Assembly: GCA_016861185.1 (NCBI GenBank) | Contig: BOKW01000007.1 | Span: 186,001-250,000, forward strand | Direction: 5' to 3' | Length of the DNA stretch: 64,000 nucleotides | From: Betaproteobacteria bacterium | GTDB taxonomy: Bacteria; Pseudomonadota; Gammaproteobacteria; Burkholderiales; Burkholderiaceae_F | Shown: one piece after another, positions 14,397 through 40,312 of the stretch | Numbering within the stretch: the stretch's first letter is position 1 | How the letters are laid out: every line of letters begins with the position of its first letter | Program-made: the position numbers and the translations under genes | The notes under the pieces: generated by a model | The model's database searches: none | What the model was told of the DNA's origin: nothing | The model's input: the letters and a program-made list of their open reading frames with translations, nothing else

Positions 14397-14408
14397 AAGC
14401 CCTTCTCG

Positions 14409-14981: not shown

Positions 14982-14984
14982 CGG

Positions 14985-15634: not shown

Positions 15635-15682
15635 GAGGTGTCACGCGGTTTGGAAAAGCTCAATAGGCCGGGGCGACGGTCG

Positions 15683-18600: not shown

Positions 18601-18748
18601 GCTTGGGGATCGGGGTGATGAATTCTGCGCGGCGGCGGCTCTCAACGATTCTCTGCGTCGGCTGGCCGGTTGCGTCGAGCTCCCAATGGCGTGACGGATA
18701 ACCGTAGGGGCTGTTGAGGATGGGTTGCTCGAAGAAGCGGTTATCCAT
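15683..18748 (-). CDS. DEAD/DEAH helicase-type restriction endonuclease subunit
   Basis: The protein has 1021 residues. A superfamily 2 helicase core carries Walker A ATGAGKT at 176-182, DEAH at 312-315, SAT at 368-370 and a motif VI region with QVIGRALRR. The C-terminus has a PD-(D/E)XK nuclease pattern, PDF at 931-933 and EIK at 952-954. This is the layout of type III Res-like enzymes, close to what is annotated as the BPTD_3080 family. It probably pairs with the methyltransferase gene downstream on the same strand. The ORF6N, vapB and repeat insertions separate the two and are odd for a single R-M operon. Confidence 0.9.
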   Translation of the reverse strand: MDNRFFEQPILNSPYGYPSRHWELDATGQPTQRIVESRRRAEFITPIPKPRKRKGAAEQASLVFDEGKGLSTKEQQYDHTAIIQSVRQHVDEWRRLPNPNDWRVTPETARLLQHWRHHEFSGIRPFFCQIEAVETAIWLTEVAPSIGKAGERFLEHLANANNDANPELMRLALKLATGAGKTTVMAMLIAWQTINAVRRPQSKRFTRGFLVVTPGLTIKDRLRVLQPNDPDSYYKERELVPGDLLEEIHRAKIVITNYHAFKLRERLELSKGGRALLQGRGEALSTLETEGQMLQRVMPDLMGLKNILVLNDEAHHCYREKPGADEDEELKGDERKEAEKNNEAARLWISGLEAVNRKLGIARVIDLSATPFFLRGSGYAEGTLFPWTMSDFSLMDAIECGIVKLPRVPVADNIPGNEMPMYRNLWENIRKDMPKKGRGKAEALDPLALPAPLQTALLALYGHYEKTFKLWQDAGIRVPPCFIVVCNNTSTSKLVYDYISGFYRSNDDGTTTLENGRLRLFQNFDEHGNPLPRPNTLLIDSEQLESGEALDDNFHTMAADEIERFRREIVERTGDRRQADNLTDQDLLREVMNTVGKPGRLGEQVRCVVSVSMLTEGWDANTVTHVLGVRAFGTQLLCEQVIGRALRRQSYDLNEQNLFNVEYADVLGIPFDFTAKPVVAPPQPPRETIQVKAVRPERDALEIRFPRVEGYRVELPEERLTAEFNDDSVLVLTPELVGPSITRNAGIIGESVDLSLDHLGDMRHSTLLFHLTQRLLYTKWRDPGEAPKLHLFGQLKRITKQWLDGYLVCKGGTYPALLMYQELADMACNRITAGITRKFVGERPIKAVLDPYNPVGSTAHVRFNTSKTLRWDTSGPPPKCHVNWVILDSDWEAEFCRVAEAHPRVRAYVKNHNLGLEVPYRYGSETRKYLPDFIVLVDDGRGDDDLLHLVVEIKGYRREDAKEKKLAMETHWVPGVNNLGTFGRWAFAEFTEIYQIESDFKAKVEAEFDKMIDRVVTLEAA

Positions 18749-19003
18749 GTCCCTTGACGAGAGGTGGGCATGCGAGCGGGTCGCGCCCGAAGCTTACAGG
18801 CGCGCCCGTCGAAAGGGCAGCCTCGACACCCGGTTCCGGCGCGCCCGCGCCAGCGACGACGCCGGCGACCGCGAACCACTGCCTTCGCCTCCCCCCCGTT
18901 GATTCCCCCGCGCGCCGCCCCAAAATTGCGCGACCGAATGCGCCGGCGGGTTCCGGCCGTGACGAAACCGGCCGGCGCTTGCGGGTGAACATGGAGGAGC
19001 GCC

Positions 19004-19165
19004 ATGCCAACGTATCAATACCGCTGCGAAAAGTGCGGCGAAACGTTCGAGCGGGTCGAGCGCCTGGCCGAGCGCGAGTCGCCGCATCGCTGCCCGAAGT
19101 GCGGCAGCGAGTCGGTGCAGTCCGCACCGACGACCTTCATGGCCAAGACGTCGCGCAAGAGCTGA
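19004..19165 (+). CDS. FmdB-type zinc-ribbon protein
   Basis: This 53-residue protein starts MPTYQYRCEKCG, the hallmark of the FmdB/CxxC_CxxC_SSSS family of putative regulators. Cys8-Cys11 and Cys30-Cys33 form the zinc ribbon. A GGAGGAGC ribosome-binding site precedes the ATG. The C-terminal tail is Ser/Lys-rich. It is a single gene with the pirin gene converging from the other side. Confidence 0.9.
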   Translation: MPTYQYRCEKCGETFERVERLAERESPHRCPKCGSESVQSAPTTFMAKTSRKS

Positions 19166-19183
19166 GCGCGGCGCGAACGATCG

Positions 19184-19212
19184 GCGCGGCGGGCGCAGTG
19201 CACCCGCCGCGC
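19184..19212. terminator. Hairpin between convergent genes, possible terminator
   Basis: GCGCGGCGGG (19184-19193) pairs perfectly with CCCGCCGCGC (19203-19212) in the 51-base gap between the zinc-ribbon and pirin genes. There is no T-run on either side, so intrinsic termination is uncertain. Confidence 0.35.
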
Positions 19213-19216
19213 GCCG

Positions 19217-20083
19217 TCAGCGCGCCAGCGCGCCGAACCGCCCGCCGTTGAAGTCCTCGATCGCCTGCACGATCTGCTCCTCGCTGTTCATCACGAACGG
19301 GCCGTAGCCGACGACCGGCTCGTCGATCGGCTCGCCGGCGAGCAGCAGCACGGTGGCGTCGCCGTTGGCTTCGAGCGCGACGTCGCTGCCTTCGCGGTCG
19401 AGCAGCACGAGCTGCGCTTCGCGCGCGACCTGCGCGTCGTTGACCAGCACGGTGCCGCGCAGGACGACGAGCGCGAGCGTGTGGCCCGCCGGCAGCGTGA
19501 ACTCGGCGCGGCGTCCCGCGGCGAGCCGCACGTCCCACACTTCGATCGGCGTGAACGTGCGCGCCGGCCCGCGTTTGCCCGCGAACTCGCCGGCGATCAC
19601 GCGCACCGTGCCCGCGCCTTCCGGCAGCTTCACGGCCGGAATGTCCGCGTCGGGCAGCGTCTGGTAGCGCGGCGGCGTCATCTTGTCCCTGGCCGGCAGG
19701 TTGACCCACAGTTGCACCATCTCGAACGCGCCGCCCGTGCGCGTGAACTCGCGCGAGTGGAACTCCTCGTGCAGGATGCCGGCGCCGGCGGTCATCCACT
19801 GCACGTCGCCGGGGCCGATCCGGCCGCCGGCGCCGGTCGAGTCGCGATGCTCGACTTCGCCGGCGTAGACGATGGTCACGGTCTCGAAGCCGCGGTGCGG
19901 GTGCTCGCCCACGCCGCGCGGCCGCGCCGCCGGCGCGAACTGCGCCGGGCCGGCGTAGTCGAGCAGAAGGAACGGGCTGGTGTGCCGGCCGAAGCCGTGG
20001 TACGAGAACAGCGTGCGCACCGGAAAGCCGTCGCCGACCCAGTGGCGATCGGTGCTGGTGTAGACGCCGAGGACTTTTTTCAT
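19217..20083 (-). CDS. Pirin family protein
   Basis: The 288-residue bicupin has the pirin metal site motif HPHRGFETVTIVYAGEVEHRD in the N-terminal cupin (about residues 60-80), where three His and a later Glu bind iron. Bacterial pirins are quercetinase-like or redox-sensing proteins. The start MKKVLGVYTS is chosen because similarity to the family begins there; the frame is open ten codons further upstream without better support. Confidence 0.9.
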   Translation of the reverse strand: MKKVLGVYTSTDRHWVGDGFPVRTLFSYHGFGRHTSPFLLLDYAGPAQFAPAARPRGVGEHPHRGFETVTIVYAGEVEHRDSTGAGGRIGPGDVQWMTAGAGILHEEFHSREFTRTGGAFEMVQLWVNLPARDKMTPPRYQTLPDADIPAVKLPEGAGTVRVIAGEFAGKRGPARTFTPIEVWDVRLAAGRRAEFTLPAGHTLALVVLRGTVLVNDAQVAREAQLVLLDREGSDVALEANGDATVLLLAGEPIDEPVVGYGPFVMNSEEQIVQAIEDFNGGRFGALAR

Positions 20084-27577: not shown

Positions 27578-28696
27578 TCAGCGCGCGTAGCGCGCGACGA
27601 AGCGGCGGTCGATGCGGTCCTTCCAGCGCCAGACCCAGCGCCCTTCGGCGCTCAAGCCGTCCCAGCTCGCGATCGCATGTTGCGGGCCGGTCGAGATCAG
27701 GTACAGCGCGACGCGCTGCGGGCGGTAGCGGCGCGGCCGCTTGCCGGCGAGATGGCGCAGCAGGTTCAGCGCGAGCGGCGGGCCGGCGCGCACCGCGTAG
27801 ACGCCGGACTTCGGACGCGGATGGCCGACCATCGACGCGCAGTCGCCGGCGGCGAAGACGAACGGGTGCGAGATCGACTGCAGCCGCTCGTCGACCGCGA
27901 TGAAGCCGCGTTCGTCGACGGCGAGCCCCGCTTCGCGCGGCCACTCGGCGGCAGCCGCGCCGATCGCGGCGATCGTCACGTCGGAGGCGATCTCGCCGCC
28001 GTCGGCGAGCAACACCGTATGGCGCGTGATCTCCGCGGCGTCGTCTTCGATCAGCCGCACGCCGCGCGCGGGCGCGAGCCGCGCGATGCGCCGGCGCACG
28101 CCTTCGCCGAGCGTCGGCAGCAGGCCGGGTTTGCCGGTGACGAGCTGCACGCGCGCCGGCACGCGCGCGGTCTGCATGCGGTGCGCGATCGCGAGGGCAA
28201 GCTCGACGCCGCCGGCACCGCCGCCGAGCACGGTGAGCGTGGCGGCGTCTTCGCCGGCTTCGGCCAGTGCAGCAAGCTGCGCGAAAAGCCGCGGCCAGGC
28301 CTGGATCAGCGATTCGATCGGCCGCAGTGCGATCGCATGCTCGCGCAACCCGGGGATCGCGTCGAGGTTCATCACCGGCCCGGTCGCGATCGAGATTACG
28401 TCGAAGGGCAGCGGCTCGGAAGCCTCCGTGTACGCGATCCGCGCGGCAAGGTCGAGCCGGGCGACGTGCGCCTGCACGAAGCGCGCGTTGGCCCGCTGCG
28501 CGAGCGGCGCGAGCGGGATCACGCACTGCTCGATCTCGTAGTGGCCCGCGATCCAGCCCGGCAGCATGCCCGAGTAGACCTGCCGGTCGAACGGCGACAC
28601 GAGCGTCACCTCGACGTCGACGAGCGGCTTGCGCGCGAGCGCGTCCAGCACGAACACGTGCGAATGGCCGCCGCCGGCCAGCAGCAGCCGCTTCAC
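27578..28696 (-). CDS. FAD-dependent oxidoreductase (NDH-2/SelD-fusion type)
   Basis: The 372-residue protein has a dinucleotide-binding GGGHSHVFVL at residues 8-17, a second GGGAGGVELA near 158 and an FAD-binding FAAGDCASM near 295. It resembles the N-terminal NADH dehydrogenase-like half found fused to selenide,water dikinase (SelD) in some bacteria, here stand-alone. It is the last gene of the sigma-factor-headed ArsS cluster, 129 bases after the DUF3047 gene. The redox partner is unknown. Confidence 0.8.
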   Translation of the reverse strand: MKRLLLAGGGHSHVFVLDALARKPLVDVEVTLVSPFDRQVYSGMLPGWIAGHYEIEQCVIPLAPLAQRANARFVQAHVARLDLAARIAYTEASEPLPFDVISIATGPVMNLDAIPGLREHAIALRPIESLIQAWPRLFAQLAALAEAGEDAATLTVLGGGAGGVELALAIAHRMQTARVPARVQLVTGKPGLLPTLGEGVRRRIARLAPARGVRLIEDDAAEITRHTVLLADGGEIASDVTIAAIGAAAAEWPREAGLAVDERGFIAVDERLQSISHPFVFAAGDCASMVGHPRPKSGVYAVRAGPPLALNLLRHLAGKRPRRYRPQRVALYLISTGPQHAIASWDGLSAEGRWVWRWKDRIDRRFVARYAR

Positions 28697-28825
28697 GGTG
28701 GGCTGAGGCGCGGCTTTCTCCGTACTGGCTGGGGGAGCACGAGGGGGCCAGCCGAGCCCCCTCGTTCGTCACCCGCCCGGCACGGGAGGTCGCGCGCGTT
28801 GGTCAAGTACATGGTGGCCGTCGAA

Positions 28826-29560
28826 TCAGGGCGTGTCGGTTTGGATCGAGATATCACCAAAGTAGGACAGCGCGTGCCCTCCCGTGTTGTCGCCGTCCGC
28901 CGAGAGGGCGACCGCGGCGAGCGGCGGCAAGCCGCCTTTGCTCTCCTCCGGAAACGCGGCGGCGAAGTCCGCGCGCAGATCGCGCGACTCGTCGAACCAG
29001 CGGCCGGGCGCTCCCTGCCGCAGCACCAGCATGCGGACGCGATCCGTGTACGCGTTGGCGAGCCACGTGCCGGCGGCGAGCTTCGCGTCCCACACGTAGC
29101 AGATCGCCGCGGCGGGCAGCTTGGGATCAAACAGCATGCGGCCGAGCCGTACGCGGAAGCGGTCGCCCGCCGACAAACGCTGGAGCGGCAGATCGAAGAG
29201 CGCGCACACGCGCGCCGGCACGTCGTCGCCCGCTTTGCGGGTCAGGTCGGCGCCTTCGATCGTCCGCTCGATGCGCCAGCGCCACGCGAGCCTCGTCGCG
29301 ATCGTGCCCGGCGGCAGCTCGTGAACGAGGTTCGCGTACGAGGTGTCGGCGCGTGCGCGCAGCACGTGCGCACCGCCGAGCGGCACCACGTCGTACTGCG
29401 TGTGGCGCGCGATCTTCGGCGAGGTGGCGAGTTTCCACGGCGCGGGCGGCGCGCCGGTCGGCGCTCTGGAAAAAGGCGCCAGCTCGATCGTGGCGGCGGC
29501 CGCGGGCGCAAGCGGCGCGAGCGCGAACGGCGCGAGCGCGAGCAGCGCGGCGCGCCTCAC
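28826..29560 (-). CDS. DUF3047 family exported protein
   Basis: The 244-residue protein starts at a GTG that overlaps the stop of the glycosyltransferase gene (GTGA) and opens with a signal peptide (about 1-22, RRAALLALAPFALAPLAPAA). The DUF3047 body includes LAWRWRIERTIEGAD and AICYVWDAKLAAGTWLANAY, ending GGHALSYFGDISIQTD. It is predicted periplasmic. The family has no known activity. The tight overlap ties it to the arsenosugar-type cluster. Confidence 0.85.
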   Translation of the reverse strand: MRRAALLALAPFALAPLAPAAAATIELAPFSRAPTGAPPAPWKLATSPKIARHTQYDVVPLGGAHVLRARADTSYANLVHELPPGTIATRLAWRWRIERTIEGADLTRKAGDDVPARVCALFDLPLQRLSAGDRFRVRLGRMLFDPKLPAAAICYVWDAKLAAGTWLANAYTDRVRMLVLRQGAPGRWFDESRDLRADFAAAFPEESKGGLPPLAAVALSADGDNTGGHALSYFGDISIQTDTP

Positions 29561-30195
29561 GCGGTGATCCAGCCCGCGGCGAGCGCGCGCTCGTAGTCTT
29601 CCGGCGTGTCGAGATCCGGCAGCGGCGGGCGTTCGCACCAGCGCAGTCCGAGCCGCGCCATGCGCGCGCGCGTGGCCTGCATCACCGTCGATCCGCCCCA
29701 TTCGATCCCTTCGAACAACTGCGCGTGCGGTGCACGCAGTCCGATCAGCACGTAGCCGCCGTCTTCGGCGGGCTGCACGACCGCGTCGTGCGCGGCGAGC
29801 GCTTCCGCCGCCGCCGCGAGATCCGCGGTCGTCAGGGCCGGGCAATCGGTGCCGATCAGCAGGCAGCGAGCGCCGCGGCCGGGCGCGAGTGTAGTGGCGA
29901 ACGCCTGCAGCATTCGCGTACCGAGATCACGTCCCTGCTGAATCCGGACCCGGATGCCGACGCGCTGCGCGCAGGCGGCGATGAACGGATGCTGCGCGTC
30001 GCCGGCGACCCACAGCGTCACGCGCGCGCCCGCGAGCGCGACGGACTTTGCGAGCGCGCTTTCGATCAACCGTTCCTGCAGCCGTGCCGCACCCTCGGCG
30101 CCGAGCCGCGGGATCAGCCGCGTCTTCGCTTCGCCCGGGACGGGCGCCTTGGCGAAGACGGCGATGTCGAGCGAGGCTGCGTCTGACGGTCGCAT
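29557..30195 (-). CDS. TIGR04282 arsenosugar-type glycosyltransferase
   Basis: The 212-residue protein has the family signature FAKAPVPGEAKTRL at residues 14-27, IGTDCPAL near 115 and QPAEDGGYVLIG near 141. TIGR04282 proteins (DUF2064, nucleotidyltransferase fold) were named for co-occurrence with the radical-SAM enzyme ArsS. Here ArsS lies about 8 kb upstream in the same gene run. The substrate has not been shown for this protein, and related enzymes act in selenoneine synthesis. Confidence 0.9.
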   Translation of the reverse strand: MRPSDAASLDIAVFAKAPVPGEAKTRLIPRLGAEGAARLQERLIESALAKSVALAGARVTLWVAGDAQHPFIAACAQRVGIRVRIQQGRDLGTRMLQAFATTLAPGRGARCLLIGTDCPALTTADLAAAAEALAAHDAVVQPAEDGGYVLIGLRAPHAQLFEGIEWGGSTVMQATRARMARLGLRWCERPPLPDLDTPEDYERALAAGWITA

Positions 30196-30210
30196 CGGGT
30201 GCGTCGCGGT

Positions 30211-30302
30211 TCTCCCTCCCCTTCAGGGGGAGAGTCGGGGTGGGGACGGGCGAGACGCCGCAGGCTACCCGATCCCTCTCCCGACCCCCCTTGGAGGGGA
30301 AG
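30211..30302. repeat. Palindromic repeats between the two glycosyltransferase genes
   Basis: CTCCCTCCCCTTCAGGGGGAGAG at 30212-30234 and GATCCCTCTCCC...TTGGAGGGG at 30271-30299 are diverged copies of the CCCTCTCCC hairpin family, separated by GTCGGGGTGGGG. They fill the 123-base gap between the genes. Confidence 0.7.
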
Positions 30303-30318
30303 GAGTCAGGCCGTCGGT

Positions 30319-31011
30319 TCACCGCGCATCGCGATAACGCCGCGCCAGCTCCGCCGGATCGGCGCCGAAGAAGTACGCGAGCCGCAGCCGCCACATCAGC
30401 AGGATCGTGCGCCACACGCCGTGCTTTTCCCAGCGGCGGCCCGAGGTCGTCACGCGTGCGGCGAGCGCGAGCGGCGGCGAGATGCGCTTGGCGCGTTTGC
30501 AGAACTCGATGTCCTCCATCAGCGGAATCGGCGCAAAGCCTTCGAGCGCAAGGAAGGCGCCGCGTTCGACGAAGATCGCCTGGTCGCCGGTGGCGATGCC
30601 GGTGAGCCGCGAGCGCCAGTTCATCAGCGCCTCGACCACCGGCAGCCAGCGCGAGCGGCCGTCGATCGAAACGTCGAAGCGGCCCCAGCGGCGGTCCGAG
30701 TTGGCGAGCGTGCGGAAGATGATCCGGTCGGCGTCGGGCGGAAGCTGCGTGTCGGCGTGCAGGAACAGCAGCACGTCGGCGTCGGCTGCCTCCGGCGCGC
30801 GCGCTCCCGCGTTCATCTGCAGCGCGCGGCCGCGCGGCGTTTCGATCACGCGGTCAGCCAGCGGTGCGGCGCGCCGCACCGTGTCGTCGCCGCTGCCGCC
30901 GTCGACGACGATCACGCGCGCGCCGCGCGCGCGCAGTTCCGCCAACCGCGCCAGTGCCGCCTCGATGCCGCGCGCTTCGTTGAGCACCGGAACGATGATC
31001 GCGAGTCGCAT
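30319..31011 (-). CDS. TIGR04283 arsenosugar-type family 2 glycosyltransferase
   Basis: The 230-residue GT-A protein has IIVPVLNEA at residues 5-13, VVDGGSGDDT at 35-44, the metal-binding FLHADT near 83 and IPLMEDIEFCKR near 182. TIGR04283 members co-occur with ArsS and TIGR04282. It has no membrane helix. It is separated from the Rossmann-fold gene upstream by a 220-base stretch of repeats. Confidence 0.92.
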   Translation of the reverse strand: MRLAIIVPVLNEARGIEAALARLAELRARGARVIVVDGGSGDDTVRRAAPLADRVIETPRGRALQMNAGARAPEAADADVLLFLHADTQLPPDADRIIFRTLANSDRRWGRFDVSIDGRSRWLPVVEALMNWRSRLTGIATGDQAIFVERGAFLALEGFAPIPLMEDIEFCKRAKRISPPLALAARVTTSGRRWEKHGVWRTILLMWRLRLAYFFGADPAELARRYRDAR

Positions 31012-31039
31012 GCTTCGGCGTTCTGAGGATGCTGTATTT

Positions 31040-31111
31040 CAACACGGAGACACCGAGTGCACGGAGAAAAGCCTCTCGGCTCCCCGTTTCCTCCGTGTGC
31101 TCCGTGGCGGA
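31040..31111. repeat. Dispersed inverted repeat (CACGGAGACAC type), copy 1
   Basis: AACACGGAGACACCGAGTGCACGGAG on the left pairs imperfectly with CTCCGTGTGCTCCGTGG on the right around a GC-rich loop. It lies between the glycosyltransferase and Rossmann-fold genes. Confidence 0.75.
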
Positions 31112-31137
31112 ATCTCCGACTGCGAAGGCCGAAGGAT

Positions 31138-31214
31138 TCACCACAGAGACACCGAGAGCACAGAGAAAACCAAAGCGACGTCCTTCTCGGTGTTCGCGGT
31201 GTCTCGGTGTTCGA
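31138..31214. repeat. Dispersed inverted repeat (CACAGAGACAC type), copy 2
   Basis: CACCACAGAGACACCGAGAG on the left pairs imperfectly with TTCTCGGTGTTCGCGGTGTC on the right. It is adjacent to copy 1, in the same orientation, with about 26 bases between. Confidence 0.75.
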
Positions 31215-31231
31215 ATCGGCCTCGTCCACCA

Positions 31232-31975
31232 TCACCGCAGTTTTCGCCGCTTCGGCGCGAGTTGCGGCCACTTCGCTTCGACAATCGCGAGCAGGTCGCG
31301 CGCGCCGAGCACGGTGACGCCGGACCGCGCGGTGCGGGCGGCTTCGACGATCGCGCGCGCGGCCGACTTGACCGACAGCGCGCGCGCGTACGTCGGCAGC
31401 ATGATGTCGGCGAGCGTGCGGCCGGCCGCGCGGACGAGCCCGGCGATCCAGCGTCCCGCGGGACGCGTGTCGTCGGCCGCGGTCGGTCTGACGATCAGCA
31501 CCGATTCGAAACCCATGCGCGCCAGCTCGATCTCGTCGCTGCTGGCGATGGTCGCCGCGGCCGCGCTCATCTGCAGCAGCGCATCCAGCGGCGCGACGAC
31601 GACGAGCCGGCGCGCGCCGCAGTCGCGCGCGATGCGCGCGGCTGCGAGCAGCTCGCCCGGCGCGAACGCGCGCAGCGGCGAGCCCGCCGGCACGAAGGTC
31701 TCGGGTCCCGCGAGGCAGACGTAGGCATCGTCGGCGATCACCACGCCCTGGCCGACGACCCACGGGCGGAAGCGCGCGGCGGCCGAGCCGATCGGCTGCG
31801 TGACGCCGACGTGTACGACGCGGTACTCGCTCGAGCCCACGAGCCGCGCCAGCAACTCCTCGCCGAGCGCGCCGACCAAACCGAGCGCAAGCGCGGTGCG
31901 CGCGCCGTCGTCCGCGCGCACGTTGCGCACGCGGTCGGCGGCGACTGCGGATTCGAGCGACGGCGCATCCGACAT
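31232..31975 (-). CDS. Rossmann-like protein of the ArsS cluster
   Basis: The 247-residue protein is built like an atypical NAD(P)-binding epimerase/reductase. An ALGLVGALGEELLARL segment at residues 30-45 takes the place of the glycine loop, RRLVVVAPLDA occurs near 121, and SVKSAARAIVEAA near 201. The glycine loop is non-canonical, so cofactor binding is uncertain. It is placed inside the arsenosugar-type gene run, 64 bases after the DUF547 gene. Confidence 0.65.
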   Translation of the reverse strand: MSDAPSLESAVAADRVRNVRADDGARTALALGLVGALGEELLARLVGSSEYRVVHVGVTQPIGSAAARFRPWVVGQGVVIADDAYVCLAGPETFVPAGSPLRAFAPGELLAAARIARDCGARRLVVVAPLDALLQMSAAAATIASSDEIELARMGFESVLIVRPTAADDTRPAGRWIAGLVRAAGRTLADIMLPTYARALSVKSAARAIVEAARTARSGVTVLGARDLLAIVEAKWPQLAPKRRKLR

Positions 31976-32039
31976 GGCGGTGCGAGGTTAGCAGCCCGGC
32001 ACGCCGCCTCGGCCGAAGGCCGACGGCGATCGGCCGACG

Positions 32040-32888
32040 TCACTTCGCGTCGTTCAATGACCAGTCGTATTCGACGAACCTGATCGGCGCACCCTTGGCG
32101 CGCAGCGCGGTGCGGTCGGCGTCGGTGTCGGCGAGCACGTCCGCGTAGCGCGCGCCGAGATCGGCGAGCGACGCGAAGCCCGGATAGCCGAGGAAGCTCT
32201 TGCCGCCCTTCTTGAAGTCGTCGGCGTACCAGTCGAAAAGCTGCGACAGCTCGAGCGTCTTCGTCTGCGGGTCGTAACGGTTGCGCGTGCGGTCGGACAG
32301 GAAGCGCCGCATCAGGTCTTCGAGCTGCGCATCGAGCCTGTCCGCGGTGAACGCCTGCCGGCCGAGCATCGGGCAGCCGATCGACGCGCAGTTCACCGCC
32401 ACGTGCACGCGCGGGTCGTCGAAGACGCCGGGCGCGCGCATCGTTTCGTGCTCGATGCCGTCGAGGTGCTGCGGTCTGCCGAGCAGCGTGAAGAAGCGGT
32501 CCTTCCACGGATTGCCGAACACGAGGCCGAAGTCGCGGATCGACTTCAGGTTCGGGTAGCGCGTCAGGATCTTTTCGACCGTGAACGCGTTGTACGCGTT
32601 GGCGAGAAAGGCGTACTGCTGCGGCTTGCTCCACTTCGCGTATTCGTCGGCGCCGACCGCGGACAGCGACTTCAGATACGCCTGAAGCTGCGCGCGGTCG
32701 GCCGCGAAGCTCTTGTAGTCGACGCGCGAGCTGTTGCCGTCGGGCGCGACACGGACGTGTTTCTGCAGCAGCGCGGTCCACGCCGCGTGCGTGTGATCGA
32801 ACTGCGCGCGCGCCTCGGGCGACACGAGCGCGAGCAGCGCGACGGCGGCGGCGCAGAGCAGGGCGGCGAAGCACGGGCGATGCGACAT
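32040..32888 (-). CDS. DUF547 family exported protein
   Basis: The 282-residue protein has a signal peptide (about 1-28, ending EARAQ). The DUF547 core is clear: RVDYKSFAADRAQLQAYL near 55, KPQQYAFLANAYNAFTVEKI near 87, HVAVNCASIGCPML near 161 with the conserved Cys pair. DUF547 proteins are papain-like in fold by prediction and are often encoded with TVP38-type proteins and ArsS. The start is followed on the minus strand by the signal peptide, with GGAGACC upstream. Confidence 0.92.
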   Translation of the reverse strand: MSHRPCFAALLCAAAVALLALVSPEARAQFDHTHAAWTALLQKHVRVAPDGNSSRVDYKSFAADRAQLQAYLKSLSAVGADEYAKWSKPQQYAFLANAYNAFTVEKILTRYPNLKSIRDFGLVFGNPWKDRFFTLLGRPQHLDGIEHETMRAPGVFDDPRVHVAVNCASIGCPMLGRQAFTADRLDAQLEDLMRRFLSDRTRNRYDPQTKTLELSQLFDWYADDFKKGGKSFLGYPGFASLADLGARYADVLADTDADRTALRAKGAPIRFVEYDWSLNDAK

Positions 32889-32905
32889 TGGGGGTCTCCG
32901 TGGTT

Positions 32906-33736
32906 TCAACGCGTGGACTGCCGGGCGGGTTCGGGCGCGGCGCTGCGCGCTGCCAGCGGCGCCGGCGTCGCCTCTTCGATCCGGTCCGCCCACAGCACGC
33001 GGCGGTAGTCGAAGCCGCGCTCGAGCGTCGGCTTGACGATGCGGAAGTACGGCGAGATGTCGAAGTCGCGCGGCGCGTACAGGCTGTGGTGGCGGATGTG
33101 CAGGTATTCGCGGTAGCAGTGGCTGCAGTGCGGATCGGCGAGCTTTTCGCGCGTGACTTCGGGCAGGATCGGATAGCGCACCGACTGGTACGCCTGCGCG
33201 ATCAGCGTCGAGCAGATCGCGCGCGTCGGGTCGCCGCTGCCGAACGCGAGCAGCCGCCGGCGGTACTGCGCCGGCACCGGCGGCGTGCGCAGCAGGTAGC
33301 GAGCCAGGTCGATCACGTTGCGCAGGTCGTAGCGGTGGCCGATGCGGCCGATCGCGAAGCGGATCACGCGCTCGCGGTCCTCGTCGGTCAGCCCGACCGG
33401 GCGGCAGATGCGCGTGTGCAGCGTCGCGTACGTCGACAGCGGAACCGCGCGCACGCCGTGCTTCAGGTCCGCTTCGATCAGCTCGGCGGGCTCGCCGTCG
33501 ATCGGCGCCAGCTCGGGCCGCCGGCCGACGTACAGCGTCGCGTGCGACCAGGTCGATTGCGTCAGGTACTTGATCGCGACGCTGATGCGCGTATTGCCTT
33601 CGACCAGCAGCACGTCGCCCGGCTGCAGCGCTGCGGCGAGCGCGTGCGCGTCGCTGGTGGTCGCGCTCGGCCGCCCGACCGGACGCGTGAGGTAGTCGGC
33701 GAGCTTGGCTCCGATCCAGCGCGCAATCGGATTCAT
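32906..33736 (-). CDS. YiiX/YebB-like NlpC/P60-type cysteine hydrolase
   Basis: The 276-residue protein has ALQPGDVLLVEGNTRISVAI near 36, the His of WSHATLYVG near 64 and the likely nucleophile Cys in AICSTLIAQAYQ near 176, the permuted papain-like order of YiiX/LRAT enzymes. These act on lipid or peptide amide/ester bonds. The start overlaps the stop of the TVP38-reductase fusion (ATGA). There is no signal peptide, so it is probably cytoplasmic or membrane-peripheral. Confidence 0.85.
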   Translation of the reverse strand: MNPIARWIGAKLADYLTRPVGRPSATTSDAHALAAALQPGDVLLVEGNTRISVAIKYLTQSTWSHATLYVGRRPELAPIDGEPAELIEADLKHGVRAVPLSTYATLHTRICRPVGLTDEDRERVIRFAIGRIGHRYDLRNVIDLARYLLRTPPVPAQYRRRLLAFGSGDPTRAICSTLIAQAYQSVRYPILPEVTREKLADPHCSHCYREYLHIRHHSLYAPRDFDISPYFRIVKPTLERGFDYRRVLWADRIEEATPAPLAARSAAPEPARQSTR

Positions 33737-35964
33737 CGAAGCGAGTGCTTGGCCTCCGCAGCATAAGCGGGGCGCTTGTCCCTGAGCAGAGCGCCGACCT
33801 TGCCGAGGACCGCGCCGAAGCCGAAGGCGCCGCGCCGCCACGCCTGGAACGCGGCGAGGAACGCCCATTGGCCCTGCGTGACGGTCGCGCGCTTCCAGTT
33901 GCCGGCGGCGTACTTGTTCGCTTCCGCGAGCGTCGGGTAGATGTGGATCGTGCCGAGGATCTTGTTCATGCCGAGGCCGTGTTTCATCGCGAGCACGTAC
34001 TCGGCGAGCAGGTCGCCGGCGTGCTCGCCGACGATCGTCGCGCCGAGGATCCGATCGGTGCCGGGTTTGGTCAGCACCTTGACGAAGCCGTGCGCTTCGC
34101 CGTCGGCGATCGCGCGATCGAGATCGTCGATGCCGTAGACCGTCACCGCGTGCGGAACGTTCTGCGCCTTCGCCTCGGACTCGTTGAGTCCCACGCGCGC
34201 GACCTCGGGGTCGGTGAAGGTCGACCACGGGATCACGCGGTAGTCGGCCTTGAATCGGCGGAAGCTGCCGAACAGCGCGTTGACCGCCGCGTACCACGCC
34301 TGATGCGACGCGGTGTGCGTGAACTGGAACGGCCCGGCGACATCGCCGCACGCGTAGATGTTCGGATAGATCGTCTGCAGGTACTCGTCGGTTTCGACCG
34401 TGCGCGCCTTGGTCGTTCCGATGCCGAGTTCTTCGAGCCCGTAGCCCTCGGTATTGGCGATGCGGCCGACGGCGACCAGCAGCGCGTCGAAGGGGATGCG
34501 CACGTCGTGCCCTTCGTACTCGGCGATCAGGATCTTCTCGCCGCCTTCGACGGCGAAGCGCTTGGCCTTGTGGCCGACCAGCACGCGGATGCCTTCGGCC
34601 TCGAAGCGGCGCTGCACGATCTCCGAAACCTCGGGGTCCTCGCGGATCAGCAGACCCGGCAGCATCTCGACCTGCGTCACCTGGCTGCCCAAACGCGCGA
34701 ACGCCTGCGTCAGCTCGGAGCCGATCGGCCCGCCGCCCAGCACGACCAGCCGCTTCGGCAGCTCGCGCAGGTTCCACACGGTGTCGGAGGTGAGATAGCC
34801 CACCTCCTCGATGCCGGGAATCGGCGGCACGAACGGGCGCGCGCCGGCGGCGATGACGATGTTCTTCGTCGCCAGCGTCTTCTTGCCGTTCGGCGTGGCC
34901 ACCTCGACCGTCCACGGCGAGGTGATCTTCGCGCTGCCCTCGACGCATTCCACGCCGAGCGACGTGTAGCGCTCGACCGAATCGTGCGGCTCGACCGTCC
35001 TGACCACGCGCGCGACGCGCTCCATCACCTCGGCGAAGTCGAAGTCGGCGCGCGCTTCGCGAATGCCGAACTCCTTGCTGCGCGCGATGTGCGACAGCAG
35101 CTTGGCCGAGCGGATCAGCGCCTTGCTCGGCACGCAGCCGGTGTTCAGGCAGTCGCCGCCCATGCGGTGTTTCTCGACCAGCGCCACCTTCGCTTTCGTC
35201 GCCGCGGCGATGTACGCCGATACGAGCCCCGCCGAGCCCGCACCGATCACGACCAGGTTGTAGTCGTACTTCGCCGGCCGCTTGTCCTTCCACTTCGCAT
35301 AGACGCGGCGCGACTTGACCGCGGCGAGGGTGCGCTTGGCGATCAGCGGGAAGATGCCCAGCAGCACGAAGGCGACGATCAGGCCGGCCGAAACGCGGAA
35401 CTGTCCGAGCTGCGTGCCCGCGTAGACGTAGACGATCGTCCCGGCGAGCATGCCGAGCTGACTGACCCAGTAGAACGTGCGCGCTCGGATCGGCGTCAGC
35501 GCCATCGCGAGGTTGATCAGCCAGAACGGGAAGATCGGCACCAGCCGCAGCGCGAAGAGATAGAACGCGCCTTCCTTCGCGATCCCTTCGTTCAGGGGTT
35601 TGAGCCGGTCGCCGAACCTGCCCTGCACCCAGTCGCGCAGCAGGAAACGCGCGGCGAGGAAGGCGAGCGTGGCGCCGATGCTGGAGGCGAACGAGACGAC
35701 GATCGTGCCGACGACCAGCCCGAAGATCGCGCCGCCGGCGAGCGTCATGAGCGCCGCGCCCGGCAGCGAAAGCGCGGTGACCGCGATGTAGACGGCGAAG
35801 TAGATCGCGATCGTCTGGAGCGGATGCGCGGCGTAGTACGCGTCGATCTTCGCGCGGCTCGCCTGGAAGAACTCGAGCGTCAGGTACTGCTTCAGATCGA
35901 AGACGAAAAACGCCGCAATCGCCGCGGCGATCACGGCGAGCAGCGCGAGCTTTTTCTTGTCCAT
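33733..35964 (-). CDS. TVP38/TMEM64 membrane domain fused to disulfide oxidoreductase
   Basis: The 743-residue fusion protein begins with about 235 residues of TVP38/DedA-like membrane domain (five to six helices, including LSLPGAALMTLAGGAIFGL). A pyridine-nucleotide disulfide oxidoreductase follows: FAD loop VIGAGSAGLVSAY, redox pair GGDCLNTGCVPSK, NAD(P) loop GGGPIGSEL and the dimerisation domain with HIYPTLAE. The fusion places a mercuric/glutathione-reductase-like unit at the inner face of the membrane. It overlaps the next gene by four bases. Transport coupled to reduction is an inference; the substrate is unknown. Confidence 0.9.
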   Translation of the reverse strand: MDKKKLALLAVIAAAIAAFFVFDLKQYLTLEFFQASRAKIDAYYAAHPLQTIAIYFAVYIAVTALSLPGAALMTLAGGAIFGLVVGTIVVSFASSIGATLAFLAARFLLRDWVQGRFGDRLKPLNEGIAKEGAFYLFALRLVPIFPFWLINLAMALTPIRARTFYWVSQLGMLAGTIVYVYAGTQLGQFRVSAGLIVAFVLLGIFPLIAKRTLAAVKSRRVYAKWKDKRPAKYDYNLVVIGAGSAGLVSAYIAAATKAKVALVEKHRMGGDCLNTGCVPSKALIRSAKLLSHIARSKEFGIREARADFDFAEVMERVARVVRTVEPHDSVERYTSLGVECVEGSAKITSPWTVEVATPNGKKTLATKNIVIAAGARPFVPPIPGIEEVGYLTSDTVWNLRELPKRLVVLGGGPIGSELTQAFARLGSQVTQVEMLPGLLIREDPEVSEIVQRRFEAEGIRVLVGHKAKRFAVEGGEKILIAEYEGHDVRIPFDALLVAVGRIANTEGYGLEELGIGTTKARTVETDEYLQTIYPNIYACGDVAGPFQFTHTASHQAWYAAVNALFGSFRRFKADYRVIPWSTFTDPEVARVGLNESEAKAQNVPHAVTVYGIDDLDRAIADGEAHGFVKVLTKPGTDRILGATIVGEHAGDLLAEYVLAMKHGLGMNKILGTIHIYPTLAEANKYAAGNWKRATVTQGQWAFLAAFQAWRRGAFGFGAVLGKVGALLRDKRPAYAAEAKHSLR

Positions 35965-36029
35965 CGGATCTCCCTGCGCGCCGGGGGCGGCGCGCGAACC
36001 GGGCAGTGGTCGACGCGTCGGCGTCGATC

Positions 36030-37055
36030 TTACGCAGTCGCGGGCCGGCAGATCGCCGCCGGCGCGCGGCCGAGCGCCTGGTCGATCGTGAACGCGGGTC
36101 CCTCGACGATTCGGCGGCGATACGAGATCGCCGCCGGCGAATCGGACGGCCAGATCGCGTCGAAGCGCGCGAGCCACGCCGCGAGATCGAATTCGATCCT
36201 GAGCGCGTCGACGAAGCAACCGGCGTCGAAGAGCCCGTACAGCCGCGTGCGTTCGAGCGCGCGCGGCAGACCCCGCGTCGAGATGCGCGTCAGCACCCCG
36301 TACGTGGTGCCGGCGAAGTTCGCCATGCCGGCCGCGCCATTGTTGATCACGAAGCCGCGCTCGAACGCCTTCAGCGCCGGCGCACAGGTGTGGCTGCACG
36401 CGTAGCCGTCGACCGCGCCGAGTTCGAGCGCGCCGGCGAGCTGCGCCGCGCGGCTTTCGTCGTGCAGGCTGTCGTGCGCGAAGCGCCAGCCGGCGAGCGC
36501 CCACGCGTCGCCGTGCACGACCGCGATGCGCGCGTCGCCGACCTGCGCGACCGCGTGCATCGGCAGCTCGCCCAGCAGCCGTCGCGAATGAAAGCCGTCT
36601 TCACACAATGCGCGCGCGACCGCGCGCAGTCGCGCGAGGATCGCGTTGCTGCGCTCGACGTCGTCGTCGGGCACCGATTCGGGATACGCGCAGCCGCAGC
36701 CGGCGGCATCGTCGTCGCTCGCGATTTCGGTCTCGACGTTGCCGCGCAGCGCCACGCTCGCTGGCGCGGCGACGACCCTCCGCTGGATCTCGGCGTACAG
36801 CGCCGGCTCCGCGTCGAACCAGTGGAAGTCGCCGTTGAACACGCGCTTGGGCGCAACGACTTCGGCCGCCGCCATCGCGTCGATCGCATCGAGCGCACAC
36901 GGATTGCCGTACAAGCCGCCGATCACGTACAGCGTGTCGGTCGCGATCTCGGGCGGGCGCGCGAACACGCGCGGCGAGTAGCCGTAGTGCGGCGGGCAAA
37001 GCCGGCCGGCGGGTTCGGATTGCGGATTGCGGATCGCGGATTGCGCTCGCGTCAT
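36030..37055 (-). CDS. Metallophosphoesterase-like protein, degenerate first motif
   Basis: The 341-residue protein keeps several calcineurin-like features: NGDFHWFD near 94, LRGNVE near 123 and AVVHGDAWAL near 178. In place of the usual metal-binding DxHG near the N-terminus it has IGGLYGN, so one metal site seems altered. A CGCAYPESVP insert follows. The ATG overlaps the stop of the symporter gene (ATGA). The first 15 residues come from a low-complexity GGATTGC repeat and may not be essential. It is in the middle of the arsenosugar-type run. Confidence 0.75.
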   Translation of the reverse strand: MTRAQSAIRNPQSEPAGRLCPPHYGYSPRVFARPPEIATDTLYVIGGLYGNPCALDAIDAMAAAEVVAPKRVFNGDFHWFDAEPALYAEIQRRVVAAPASVALRGNVETEIASDDDAAGCGCAYPESVPDDDVERSNAILARLRAVARALCEDGFHSRRLLGELPMHAVAQVGDARIAVVHGDAWALAGWRFAHDSLHDESRAAQLAGALELGAVDGYACSHTCAPALKAFERGFVINNGAAGMANFAGTTYGVLTRISTRGLPRALERTRLYGLFDAGCFVDALRIEFDLAAWLARFDAIWPSDSPAAISYRRRIVEGPAFTIDQALGRAPAAICRPATA

Positions 37056-38467
37056 CGGCTCGCCTGTATCGCAGTACGGCCGAACGCTGCTGCGCTTCGC
37101 AGCGCGACCGGCAGCAGGAAGCCTGCGGTGCACAACGCGAGCCCGTACGCGTTGGCGCCGAGCAGCAGCGCGTACTTGCCGTCGCCGATCGCCCAGCTCT
37201 GCGGCAGCACGCCGGCCGCGAGCGCGAAGCCGATCGCGATGCCGGTCCAGAAGCTCAGATGGAAGCTCCACGGCGAGCGGTCGGCCCAGCGGTGCAACAG
37301 GAACACCGGCGCCAACCCCATCACCATCGTGCCGCTGACGGTCGTCGCCTTGAGGATATCGGTGCCGGCGACCATCGGCAGGTTGCCGACCACGGCGATT
37401 GCGATCATCGCGACCATGCCGATGCGGATCGCGCGCGGCGCGTCGAGCGTATGCCCGGCCAGCAGCGGCAGCTCGCGGCCGACCGACTTCGCGACCGACG
37501 AGAAGGTCGAGTCGAGCGTGGAGCCCGCTGCCGAGATCATCACGACGCTCATCAGGAACAACGCGCCCAGCCCGAGCGCGCCGGCGACCGCCGCCGGCAC
37601 GTTGTCGCCCGGCGCGATGCCTTCGAGCCGCGCGTGCACGCCGACCAGGCTGAAGCCGAAGATGCAGACGAAACCGAGCACGCCGGCGATCACGAACGCC
37701 CGCAGCATCGAACGCTCGCGCGTGATGAAGCCGCGGTCGGTCAGCACGGGGTCGTGGAACGGGTAGCTCAGCACCTGCAGCGCGGCGACCAGGATCAGAT
37801 CGACGCCGCCGCGCAGCGTGAACTCGCCGACCGCAAGCAGCGTGCCGGTGCCGTGGCGCGGCAGCACGACGAGCAGCGCGAACGCGGCGAAGACGACGAA
37901 CAGCGCGGCCTGGATCACGTCGGTGAAGATCGAGCTGCGCAGCCCGCCCTTCAGGCTGTAGAAGAGCGTGACCGCGGTGAACAGCAGCGCGGCGCCGATG
38001 AACACACCCGATCCCGCCGGCCCGTAGTAGCCGCCGACGACGGCGGTGTTGCTCCACACCTCGTTGTAAAGCCGGATCAGGATCGCGGCGCTGAACGCCA
38101 GCGCGGCGAGCTTGCCGTACTTCGACGTGAGGAACTGCACGAGCCCGGTCGCCGCGTAGCGCGTGCGCAGCCGGTAGATCACGAAGCCGGCGAGCGGGAT
38201 CGACAGCCAGTAGGTCGCGTAGGCGAGCCCGCCGACCACGCCGTGGATCGCGCCGAGGTTGGCCGCGTTGGTGATCGACTTGGCGAAGATCCACGAGATG
38301 AAGATGCTCAGCATCAACGCCCATTCGCTCGCCGCGCGCCCCTGCTCGTCGGTGCCGGCGAAAAACGCCGACAACGTACGCGCCTGCGGCGACACCGCGT
38401 ACATCGCCACGCCGTACAGGATCAGGAAACCCCAGAAGGCGAATCCGAAGAGAAGCTCGGTCTGCAT
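37052..38467 (-). CDS. Sodium:solute symporter family transporter
   Basis: The 471-residue protein has about thirteen hydrophobic helices and SSS-family landmarks. These include ISIFISWIFAKSITNAANLG near residues 53-73, GGLRSSIFTDVIQAALF near 174 and a conserved RSMLRAF segment. It probably takes up an organic solute with sodium. It starts 13 bases after the arsS stop and overlaps the metallophosphoesterase start, so it shares their operon. The substrate is unknown, possibly a pathway precursor or product. Confidence 0.9.
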   Translation of the reverse strand: MQTELLFGFAFWGFLILYGVAMYAVSPQARTLSAFFAGTDEQGRAASEWALMLSIFISWIFAKSITNAANLGAIHGVVGGLAYATYWLSIPLAGFVIYRLRTRYAATGLVQFLTSKYGKLAALAFSAAILIRLYNEVWSNTAVVGGYYGPAGSGVFIGAALLFTAVTLFYSLKGGLRSSIFTDVIQAALFVVFAAFALLVVLPRHGTGTLLAVGEFTLRGGVDLILVAALQVLSYPFHDPVLTDRGFITRERSMLRAFVIAGVLGFVCIFGFSLVGVHARLEGIAPGDNVPAAVAGALGLGALFLMSVVMISAAGSTLDSTFSSVAKSVGRELPLLAGHTLDAPRAIRIGMVAMIAIAVVGNLPMVAGTDILKATTVSGTMVMGLAPVFLLHRWADRSPWSFHLSFWTGIAIGFALAAGVLPQSWAIGDGKYALLLGANAYGLALCTAGFLLPVALRSAAAFGRTAIQASR

Positions 38468-38480
38468 CGTCGCCTCCGCG

Positions 38481-39446
38481 TCAACCGAGAGCGCCGCCGC
38501 AGCTCGACCCTTGCCCGGCGGTGCAGCCGTAGCAGTGGTCGGCGACGACGATCGGGTTGTCGGTGAGGTCCAGTTCGAGCCAGTCCTCGAGGTGCAGCCG
38601 GCCGTGCCCCTTGCCGCCCTCGCGCAGCGGCAGGCCGAGCATCTGGTGGAAGTCGCAGTCGTACAGGAAACCCTGCCAGTCGACCGAAACGAGCGTGCGG
38701 CACATCACGTGCTCGACGTTCTCGGCGCGATGCGCCGAGCGCAGCAGCGCCATGTAATCGCGGAACTGCCCCTTGCTGATCAGCGTGGAGCCGAAGCGCG
38801 CGATCGGCATGTTCGCCAGCGCATACAGCCGCGTGAAGACGATGCCGAAGTGCTCGCCGAGCTGCTTGCGGTAGTCGGCTTCGAGCTTCTTCTGGTCCGG
38901 CGGCAGCGACGGCCCCTGCGGGTTGTAAACGAGCGAAAGCGGAAGCCGCTCGTCGCGGCCGTAGCCGAGCGCATTGAGCTTCTGCAAGGCGTGCACGCTC
39001 TTGTCGAAGACGCCTTTGCCGCGCTGACGATCGACGTTGTCTTCCAGGTAGCAGGGCAGGGAGGCGACGACCTCGACCCCGTTCGCGGCGAGAAACTCTG
39101 CGAGTTCCTCCTGCCCGGGCTCGAACAGGATCGTCAGGTTGCAGCGGTCGATCACGTGCACGCCGCGCGTTCCTGCCTCGCGCACGAGGTCGCGGAAGTG
39201 CGGGTTCAGTTCGGGTGCGCCGCCGGTCAGGTCGAGGGTCTTGATCTCCTTCGCGACGAGCACGTCCAGCACGAGGTCGATCGTCTCGCGGCTCATCTGC
39301 TCGGTGCGGTTGGGCCCCGCGTTGACGTGGCAGTGCACGCAGGACTGGTTGCAGGTGTAGCCGAGATTGACCTGCAGCGTTTCGACGACGCGGCGGCGGA
39401 TCGGCGGGAAATCGGTGGCCTTCAGCAGCGGCAGGGTGGCGTGCAC
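38481..39446 (-). CDS. arsS: Arsenosugar biosynthesis radical SAM protein ArsS
   Basis: The 321-residue protein carries the radical-SAM cluster motif CNQSCVHC with Cys32, Cys36 and Cys39, LDLTGGAPELNP near 71 and the ArsS C-terminal domain (DUF3641) ending CYGCTAGQGSSCGGALG with Cys305, Cys308 and Cys316. ArsS is thought to transfer the 5'-deoxyadenosyl group to dimethylarsenite, making the precursor of arsenosugars. All expected Cys codons are Cys, with no in-frame TGA that would suggest selenocysteine. It lies just downstream of the anti-sigma gene. Confidence 0.95.
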   Translation of the reverse strand: MHATLPLLKATDFPPIRRRVVETLQVNLGYTCNQSCVHCHVNAGPNRTEQMSRETIDLVLDVLVAKEIKTLDLTGGAPELNPHFRDLVREAGTRGVHVIDRCNLTILFEPGQEELAEFLAANGVEVVASLPCYLEDNVDRQRGKGVFDKSVHALQKLNALGYGRDERLPLSLVYNPQGPSLPPDQKKLEADYRKQLGEHFGIVFTRLYALANMPIARFGSTLISKGQFRDYMALLRSAHRAENVEHVMCRTLVSVDWQGFLYDCDFHQMLGLPLREGGKGHGRLHLEDWLELDLTDNPIVVADHCYGCTAGQGSSCGGALG

Positions 39447-39557
39447 GGGGCGTCCTTCGGAGGGGCTGGATAGCTTGGTCGCGGCCGGCGCGCGGGTCTT
39501 ACGCCGGGCCGCCGCTATGCCTCCGACCGGGGAGGATCGTAGCGGTTCAGTCCCGCC

Positions 39558-39746
39558 TCATTCGCCGAGCCGCCGCACGGCGCGGCGCATCAGGTCGAAC
39601 TGGCGGTCGACCCGGGAACAGAGATCGCAGGCCTTCAAGTGCAGGTACAGGCGGTAGCGGCCGAGCGGCGAAAGCGGCCGATCCATCCGCTCCGAAAGCA
39701 GCACGTGGGCCTGCCGGCAGGTGATTCGGGTCAGTCGCTTGATCAT
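39558..39746 (-). CDS. Small zinc-finger anti-sigma factor
   Basis: The 62-residue protein has the zf-HC2 anti-sigma pattern: Cys10, His14, then His36-x3-Cys40-x2-Cys43. It has no membrane helix, so it should be a soluble, possibly redox- or metal-sensing anti-sigma factor. The ATG overlaps the sigma factor stop (ATGA), which supports a partner role. Confidence 0.88.
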   Translation of the reverse strand: MIKRLTRITCRQAHVLLSERMDRPLSPLGRYRLYLHLKACDLCSRVDRQFDLMRRAVRRLGE

Positions 39747-40312
39747 CCGGCTTGCACCTTCCCGAACCAGTTCGATTCGAGGCACTCCCGCAGGCGCATG
39801 CGCGCGCGGAAGAGCATCACGAAGCAGTTGGTCGACGTGATCGCCAGCTCCTTACAGATCTGCTCGGTCTCGAGCTCGAGCCACTCGCGCATCATGAACA
39901 CGCGGCCGAGATTGGCCGGCAGCCGGTCGACGCAAAGCTGCAGGATCTCGAAGAACTGCGTGCGCGCGAGCGTCTGCTCGGGATCGCCCCAGTCGAGCGG
40001 AGGATCGAGCCGATGGCCGCTGGGGTGGTAAAGCTCGTCGAAGGTTTCGACTTCGGCCGCTTCGACCTGCGCGTCGGCGGAGATCTCGCGCGCCGCGCGG
40101 CGGAAGTGATCGATGATCTTGTGCTTGAGGATGCCGACGACCCAGGTCTTCAGTTGCGACTGGCCGGCGAAATTGCCCGCGCCTTCGAGCGCCGCGATCA
40201 GCGTCTCGGAGACGACGTCCTCGGCCCAGGTGTCGTTGCGAAGCTGCAGCCGCGCGATCTTCAGCAGCGCGGGGCGCAGCTCGGCGAGCGACTGACTGAC
40301 GGCAGCATCCAT
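39743..40312 (-). CDS. ECF RNA polymerase sigma factor
   Basis: The 189-residue protein has sigma region 2 (WAEDVVSETLIAALEGA, then QLKTWVVGILKHKIIDHFRR) and region 4 (LPANLGRVFMMREWLELETEQICKEL, then TSTNCFVMLFRARMRLRECL). It is group IV, lacking regions 1 and 3. It heads the run arsS-symporter-phosphoesterase-reductase and onwards, and forms a pair with the overlapping zinc-finger anti-sigma gene. It probably controls that run. Confidence 0.93.
   Translation of the reverse strand: MDAAVSQSLAELRPALLKIARLQLRNDTWAEDVVSETLIAALEGAGNFAGQSQLKTWVVGILKHKIIDHFRRAAREISADAQVEAAEVETFDELYHPSGHRLDPPLDWGDPEQTLARTQFFEILQLCVDRLPANLGRVFMMREWLELETEQICKELAITSTNCFVMLFRARMRLRECLESNWFGKVQAG

Follow-up and report, generated by a model that had tools for sequence, protein, structure and literature searches.

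Within a 64,000-nucleotide stretch of the genome of a Betaproteobacteria bacterium of the order Burkholderiales (hereafter the window; assembly GCA_016861185.1, contig BOKW01000007.1, positions 186,001 to 250,000), we describe a thirteen-gene cluster (27578-40312) organised around ArsS, a radical S-adenosylmethionine (SAM) enzyme, and the features tested place this region among the arsenosugar (ArsS) systems. Its products very probably couple methylated arsenic to a sugar derived from adenosine, and the pathway that they form is probably, though by no means surely, an arsenosugar-type one of the "import" sort, which would take up arsenic already methylated. Three aspects appear new: this import-type layout, a tie between ArsS and an uncharacterised metallophosphoesterase-fold protein (hereafter MPE), and the rarity of a detectable arsenite methyltransferase, ArsM, among the ArsS genomes of the order. 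A literature search, which covered subscription journals thinly and is not proof of absence, returned nothing on MPE, on importers in ArsS clusters or on ArsS without ArsM. A previous sequence-only reading had proposed a modified arsenical or another adenosyl-derived sugar, with ArsM absent from the window, an ECF sigma pair at the head and the whole under envelope or redox control; its arsenosugar type holds, ArsM is not missing from the organism, and sigma control is not supported as a rule.

Conservation of ArsS and its genomic partners

In arsenosugar biosynthesis ArsS acts on dimethylarsenite, the presumed substrate here too. The enzyme of the window carries the CX3CX2C motif and the C-terminal cysteines, with Cys 32, 36, 39, 249, 264, 305 and 308 found in 141/141 aligned ArsS sequences and Cys 316 in 140/141 (loci L050 and L051, from the same record set as L049, were left out). 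Among 63 labelled sequences (26 from ArsM-positive and 37 from ArsM-negative genomes), no alignment column splits the two groups, and mean identities are nearly equal inside (0.597 and 0.606) and between them (0.595). A different ArsS substrate in ArsM-less genomes was therefore set aside for want of a diagnostic column among these 63, and we read both groups as sharing one substrate with a differing supply.

Co-occurrence was surveyed in 150 genomes of the order and 299 of the phylum. In the order sample, ArsS was above the curated cut-off in 50/150 genomes and the TIGR04283 glycosyltransferase in 52/150, including all 50 with ArsS (Fisher p 6.6e-38). ArsM reached its cut-off in only 7/150, five of these being ArsS-positive; ArsM-like matches of at least 150 bits were found in 18/50 ArsS genomes vs 5/100 others (p 2e-6), and ArsS and ArsM are thus linked on average. 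No such match was detected in 32/50 ArsS genomes, among them three with a listed completeness of 99-100% on a single contig (G022, G038, G069), a count that is an upper bound because it rests on the model NF008823 while a separate arsenosugar ArsM model, NF038099, exists. The methyltransferase of the L049 cluster reaches only 91 bits on NF038099, and the control Synechococcus elongatus matches ArsS and TIGR04283, not NF008823 at 1e-40.

In the phylum sample, ArsS was found at E <=1e-80 in 114/299 genomes (113 above cut-off), of which 60 come from one family, f76. Within f76, ArsM was above cut-off in 47/60 ArsS genomes and an ArsM-like match was present in 53/60, arsM adjoining ArsS in the three f76 loci read, vs an ArsM-like match in 13/54 ArsS genomes outside this family, two of them above cut-off. 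TIGR04283 occurred in 101/114 ArsS genomes, and its tie with ArsS is looser in the phylum than in the order.

Two variants of this arrangement were also observed. The two order genomes with TIGR04283 and no ArsS above cut-off (G015 and G146; loci L172 and L173) encode, next to TIGR04283, both an ArsM-like methyltransferase and another radical SAM protein (47 and 42 bits on TIGR04167), possibly a second arsenic-sugar arrangement. In addition, a second, lower-scoring ArsS type (L146, L150, L154, L156, L158, L165 and L180-L182) has no adjacent partner gene by profiles, and TIGR04283 stands in these genomes on a separate contig or more than 20 kb off.

A metallophosphoesterase-fold family found with ArsS

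The MPE gene (37055-36030) had not been named in the sequence-only reading. Matches to MPE were found in 26 genomes of the order sample and all 26 carry ArsS (p 1.3e-15). The two genes are not always neighbours: they lie ~468 kb apart on the same contig in G038, and on different contigs in G003, G012, G026, G060, G083, G092 and G114, which in fragmented genomes is no proof of distance.

An alignment of 35 sequences (A1) revealed four invariant cysteines in MPE, C20, C120 and C122 (within GCGC) and C224 (within SHTC), and a motif I of the form GG-x-YGN in which G46, G47, Y49, G50 and N51 are invariant. Its AlphaFold2 model has a mean predicted local distance difference test score (pLDDT) of 93.4, and the nearest solved folds recovered with Foldseek were 2gju, SapH (3qfn) and 1nnw, the match to SapH having an E value of 5.9e-10 and a TM-score of 0.56 by query and 0.74 by target. 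MPE therefore has its fold in common with SapH, an asymmetric diadenosine tetraphosphate (Ap4A) hydrolase, and differs from it by the replacement of the motif I ligands with Gly/Tyr, by the four invariant cysteines and by the fact that no sequence relative of MPE was found in the PDB. The start of the gene is uncertain, as short direct repeats (ATCCGCA-like units) occupy 37015-37045 at the start of the frame.

Arsenate reductases have elsewhere evolved from phosphatase folds. We propose MPE as a methylarsenical reductase or carrier, since an oxyanion site equipped with thiols and encoded next to an importer is what the reduction of a pentavalent methylarsenical would call for.

Related clusters and candidate importers

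The search of named genomes returned at least 555 ArsS relatives, of which the best 80 were kept, largely from metagenome-assembled genomes of Burkholderiales and other Betaproteobacteria, with some Gammaproteobacteria; among the matches listed, the closest ArsS proteins share 85, 84 and 82% identity with that of the window. Open reading frames were clustered across 101 loci (the window, these 80 and 20 from the order sample), and the partner counts are minima because contig ends cut several loci. Homologues of the VTT/MerA-like membrane reductase of the window were found in 79 loci, of the joint TIGR04282/TIGR04283 group in 71, of MPE in 40, of the TIGR03169 flavoprotein in 28, of the sigma factor and of 5'-methylthioadenosine (MTA) phosphorylase in 22 each, of DUF547 and of DUF3047 in 20 each, of an ArsM-like methyltransferase in 16, of the symporter in 14 and of an HtxB/PhnD-like binding protein in 9. 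Several cluster genes thus recur around ArsS in other genomes, which argues against a chance grouping.

Pairs of partners were tested on 110 loci, obtained from 141 ArsS loci reduced to 136 at 97% identity and then to those with at least 6.5 kb downstream; the p values are optimistic because the loci are related by descent. An importer, either the symporter or the HtxB-like protein, is present in 24/110 loci, and MPE accompanies it in 22 of these 24 (p 5e-11). MPE occurs in 1/18 clusters holding a methyltransferase vs 37/92 others (p 0.005, with no correction for shared descent or for testing several pairs), PitA occurs solely with the methyltransferase (6/6, p 9e-6), and DUF547 is found in 34/110.

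The candidate importer of the window is a divergent protein resembling solute:sodium symporters (SSS-like), homologues of which occupy the position after ArsS in several relatives; it has no sequence relative in the PDB and the searches, which also took in a relative, gave it no substrate name. The HtxB-like importer belongs to the clusters of relatives and is absent from the window, where the SSS-like protein takes its slot. ATP-binding cassette (ABC) systems with such binding proteins are uptake systems. The best match of the L046 binding protein is HtxB (E 2.6e-45), followed by PtxB (3e-22), with weaker similarity to the arsenic-related ArrX and AioX (8e-11 and 1e-9). All 11 HtxB-like cluster homologues examined, of which L091 and L097 look alike, keep HtxB's W52, T129, S130, R178 and D206. 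Unlike HtxB, the 11 carry N128S, F158H and M176Y/F, M18 is replaced by F or Y, W68 by L in 8/11, and their genes lie inside ArsS clusters. For HtxB-like proteins with these three substitutions, PMC6629693 gives an enlarged modelled pocket of 88 vs 68 cubic angstroms and discusses them in terms of phosphite. By analogy, the R2XO2- shape common to hypophosphite and dimethylarsinate suggests the latter as a candidate ligand of the HtxB-like importer.

ArsM in the source genome

The source genome (4.03 Mb, 13 contigs, listed as 85.6% complete) has the window on contig C7. That ArsM is not in the window was correct for NF008823, none of the 22 genome matches being on C7. Its absence from the organism is by contrast ruled out, since the genome search found a canonical arsM at C12:11863-12642 (371.2 bits, cut-off 263), whose product has a cysteine-rich N-terminus and cysteines at the three characteristic ArsM positions. 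The earlier unease about the missing methyltransferase is consequently dispelled for this genome, and is justified for the clade by the 32/50 ArsS genomes described above. A MTA phosphorylase gene is present at C2:411235-411966 (282.3 bits, cut-off 274.85), and further ArsM-like matches below cut-off are located at C4:249482, C4:39780 and C4:251207.

Some of these other loci have features of their own. The ArsM-like gene at C4:249482-250135 (L005, L175) shows, by eye, an in-frame TGA where ArsM has a cysteine, in a UxxG context, and the genome encodes a tRNA-Sec at C1:517327. As the UxxG context is listed for a selenoprotein arsenite methyltransferase in PMC13188914, the product may be a selenoprotein of this type. 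Also on C4, the ArsM-like methyltransferase encoded at L175:9698-10933 has a C-terminal part resembling MerC (PF03203 25.8 bits, under the 27.6 cut-off), and a sigma gene paired with a zf-HC2 anti-sigma gene precedes it on its strand. On C12 (L174:7283-15402), the gene before ArsM encodes a sigma factor of the SigZ type (182.4 bits, cut-off 168.65), the one after it carries cytochrome c motifs, and a second DUF3047-like gene stands ~4 kb upstream.

Organisation of the cluster

As previously described, the thirteen genes within 27578-40312, sigma pair included, are all on the minus strand. They are listed below in the order of transcription, with profile scores in bits and curated cut-offs in brackets.

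39743-40312, minus: extracytoplasmic function (ECF) sigma factor, TIGR02943/PRK12520; TIGR02943 230.3 (162.2), PRK12520 279.6 (255)
39558-39746, minus: 62-aa soluble zf-HC2 anti-sigma factor; NF052368 51.6 (50), PF13490 24.9 (22.2); overlaps the sigma gene by 4 bp
38481-39446, minus: ArsS, radical SAM; TIGR04167 459.8 (300); DUF3641 and Radical_SAM domains
37052-38467, minus: divergent SSS-like symporter, proposed importer; TIGR00813 19.6, below cut-off (184); no Pfam match
36030-37055, minus: MPE, metallophosphoesterase fold; four invariant cysteines; weak metallophosphatase match below cut-off
33733-35964, minus: fusion of a VTT domain with a MerA- and LPD-like flavin disulfide reductase; VTT_dom, Pyr_redox_2, Pyr_redox_dim
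32906-33736, minus: C92 (YaeF/YiiX) permuted papain-like protein; PF05708 36.7 (27), scored on the longer frame 32906-35293
32040-32888, minus: DUF547 protein; PF04784 69.8 (27), scored on the longer frame 32040-33764
31232-31975, minus: 247-aa protein; no Pfam or NCBIfam match
30319-31011, minus: TIGR04283 glycosyltransferase of the GT2 family; 263.5 (182)
29557-30195, minus: TIGR04282 CofC-like protein (DUF2064), annotated as a glycosyltransferase; 203.1 (134), PF09837 112.8 (25.8)
28826-29560, minus: DUF3047 protein, beta-rich fold; PF11249 187.4 (27), scored on the longer frame 28826-29845
27578-28696, minus: TIGR03169 flavoprotein; 388.8 (310); the model name refers to a domain fused to SelD elsewhere

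The combination of ArsS, TIGR04282 and TIGR04283 is borne out, all three being above their curated cut-offs. Close linkage was likewise recovered; the count of five close junctions among twelve was not, as six overlap or are separated by fewer than 20 bp with the present starts (-4, 13, -4, -4, 17 and -4 bp), the number falling back to five if the MPE start lies downstream of 37055. The VTT/MerA-like reductase scored 530.6 bits on PRK06370.1-3 (cut-off 620) and matched the mercuric reductase 5x1y with an E value of 3.8e-77. On the equivalog models for F420 CofC (TIGR03552) and mycofactocin MftF (TIGR03965), the scores remained below cut-off (47 bits vs 105, and 39.6 vs 280). The DUF3047 protein was modelled by AlphaFold2 with a mean pLDDT of 94.0 and its fold weakly resembles glucuronyl C5-epimerase, X122 domains and carbohydrate-binding modules, while the 247-aa protein has a homologue at one other locus only among those searched (L044).

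Upstream of the sigma gene, the hibadh gene (41290-40388) was set aside as a pathway component, its homologues being found only in the window, L042, L043 and L044. Farther away, 8001-19252 is a stretch of lower guanine-cytosine content (0.60-0.65 over 8001-18000) near a tRNA-Val gene (19161-19252), which holds an N6/N4 DNA methylase (11363-14323) and a ResIII protein (15683-18748), a type III restriction-like pair.

Possible regulation by the sigma factor

Profile scores confirmed the ECF sigma and soluble anti-sigma pair at the head of the cluster, and this pair would act as a local switch. Control of the present cluster is plausible from gene overlap and position, and proximity also exists in some other loci: among the 101 loci, 21 of the 22 sigma homologues are within 6 kb of ArsS and 14 are on its strand, and TIGR02943 stands at <=10 kb from ArsS in 5 of the 25 ArsS genomes that encode it (G000, G020, G102, G115 and G120). 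As a rule for ArsS clusters, sigma control was rejected, TIGR02943 showing no significant association with ArsS at genome level (25/50 ArsS genomes vs 42/100 others, p 0.39).

Proposed pathway and alternative explanations

In the pathway that we propose, dimethylated arsenic would enter through the SSS-like symporter (through the HtxB-like ABC system in some relatives) or, in the present organism, also come from the ArsM encoded on C12. Pentavalent dimethylarsinate would then be reduced by MPE together with the VTT/MerA-like membrane reductase, allowing ArsS to add the SAM-derived 5'-deoxyadenosyl group to the trivalent dimethylarsenical. A MTA-type phosphorylase encoded elsewhere in the genome would remove adenine, after which TIGR04282 may activate the arseno-ribose and TIGR04283 transfer it to an acceptor, two roles that we infer from CofC-like and GT2 relatives. 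What the sequences show directly is the gene content, the linkage, the co-occurrence and the presence of ArsM and MTA phosphorylase genes in the genome; import, reduction and the steps after adenosylation are inferred.

According to PMC12159101, which cites Cheng et al. 2021, a radical SAM enzyme adenosylates arsenic in arsenosugar synthesis, and ArsS of Synechocystis acts with ArsM in the first steps (PMC8552651). The present system resembles this ArsM-ArsS system by the ArsS cysteines, the TIGR04282 and TIGR04283 partners and the presence of ArsM in the genome. It differs by the location of ArsM on another contig and, the cyanobacterial cluster not having been compared directly, by the additional MPE, SSS-like symporter, VTT/MerA-like reductase, DUF547, DUF3047, C92, TIGR03169 and sigma pair. 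Radical SAM carbon-arsenic chemistry is also shared with the arsinothricin cluster arsQML, which has a methyltransferase and a transporter in the cluster (PMC8552651). Its ArsL moves a 3-amino-3-carboxypropyl group, whereas the radical SAM protein here is ArsS by score, with TIGR04167 as its best family, no arsinothricin model among the 25 of 41 families listed, and no ArsM in the cluster.

Several observations weigh against an import-type pathway. ArsM is present in this genome, so import need not be required here. In the phylum sample, TIGR04283 was found in 35/185 genomes without ArsS (E <=1e-80) and was absent from 13/114 with ArsS. MPE lacks the usual metallophosphoesterase motif I ligands (D-x-H), with Gly/Tyr instead, and two of its 26 genomes hold fragments (G010) or a split match (G102). 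The MTA phosphorylase homologues near ArsS share its strand in only 8/22 loci. A strict exclusion between importer and methyltransferase was not significant over the 110 loci (1/24 vs 17/86, p 0.11), and MPE does not avoid ArsM-like proteins at the genome level in the order sample (8/26 vs 10/24, p 0.56), so neither exclusion was retained. ArsM-like proteins show some clustering along the ArsS tree (14 changes vs a shuffled mean of 20.3, 5/1000 shuffles being as low) and the loci are not independent. Finally, no binding of HtxB to methylphosphonate was seen in PMC5700983, and a bulky dimethyl ligand is therefore uncertain.

One alternative is an ordinary pathway fed only by an endogenous ArsM encoded elsewhere, the transporter and MPE acting as exporters or accessories, for instance in arsenosugar export or late phosphate-ester hydrolysis. 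We regard this explanation as rather unlikely, although the canonical ArsM and the MTA phosphorylase of this genome, the positive ArsS-ArsM association in both samples and the eight genomes in which MPE and ArsM-like proteins coexist are all in its favour; it fits poorly with the 32 ArsS genomes devoid of an NF008823-type ArsM of at least 150 bits, including the three single-contig ones, and with the resemblance of the relatives' HtxB-like proteins to binding proteins of ABC uptake. Those 32 genomes could be supplied by a divergent ArsM subtype missed by NF008823, leaving nothing unusual to explain. The existence of NF038099, the low score of the L049 methyltransferase even on this model and the S. 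elongatus control all point this way, against which the matches of the "ArsM-less" genomes (among those listed, of at least ~53 bits and with at most 15 candidates per genome) begin at profile position 62 or later and cover only the general SAM-binding part, and we consider such a subtype unlikely. A quite improbable alternative is that ArsS adenosylates here a non-arsenic substrate, such as another thiophilic element or an imported reduced phosphorus compound: ArsM above cut-off is lacking in 45/50 ArsS genomes of the order and the importer's nearest solved relative is the hypophosphite-binding HtxB, but no ArsS column separates the genomes and mean identities are equal, ArsS is still associated with ArsM-like proteins, and some clusters hold ArsM-like genes beside the same partners.

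Implications

Extending the import-type reading beyond this genome, we tentatively suggest, while holding the whole of this joint claim to be doubtful, that many bacteria of the order run an ArsM-independent, scavenging arsenosugar synthesis, in which methylated arsenic made by other microbes would be taken up by a dedicated importer, reduced with MPE and locked in by ArsS with TIGR04282 and TIGR04283. If true, this would turn a one-cell detoxification into a community trait, some members methylating arsenic and others importing the product and locking it away as sugars. The analysis further singles out MPE, an uncharacterised family restricted to ArsS genomes in the sample, offers a guess at the substrate of a subfamily of HtxB-like importers, and bears on the origin of arsenosugars outside algae.

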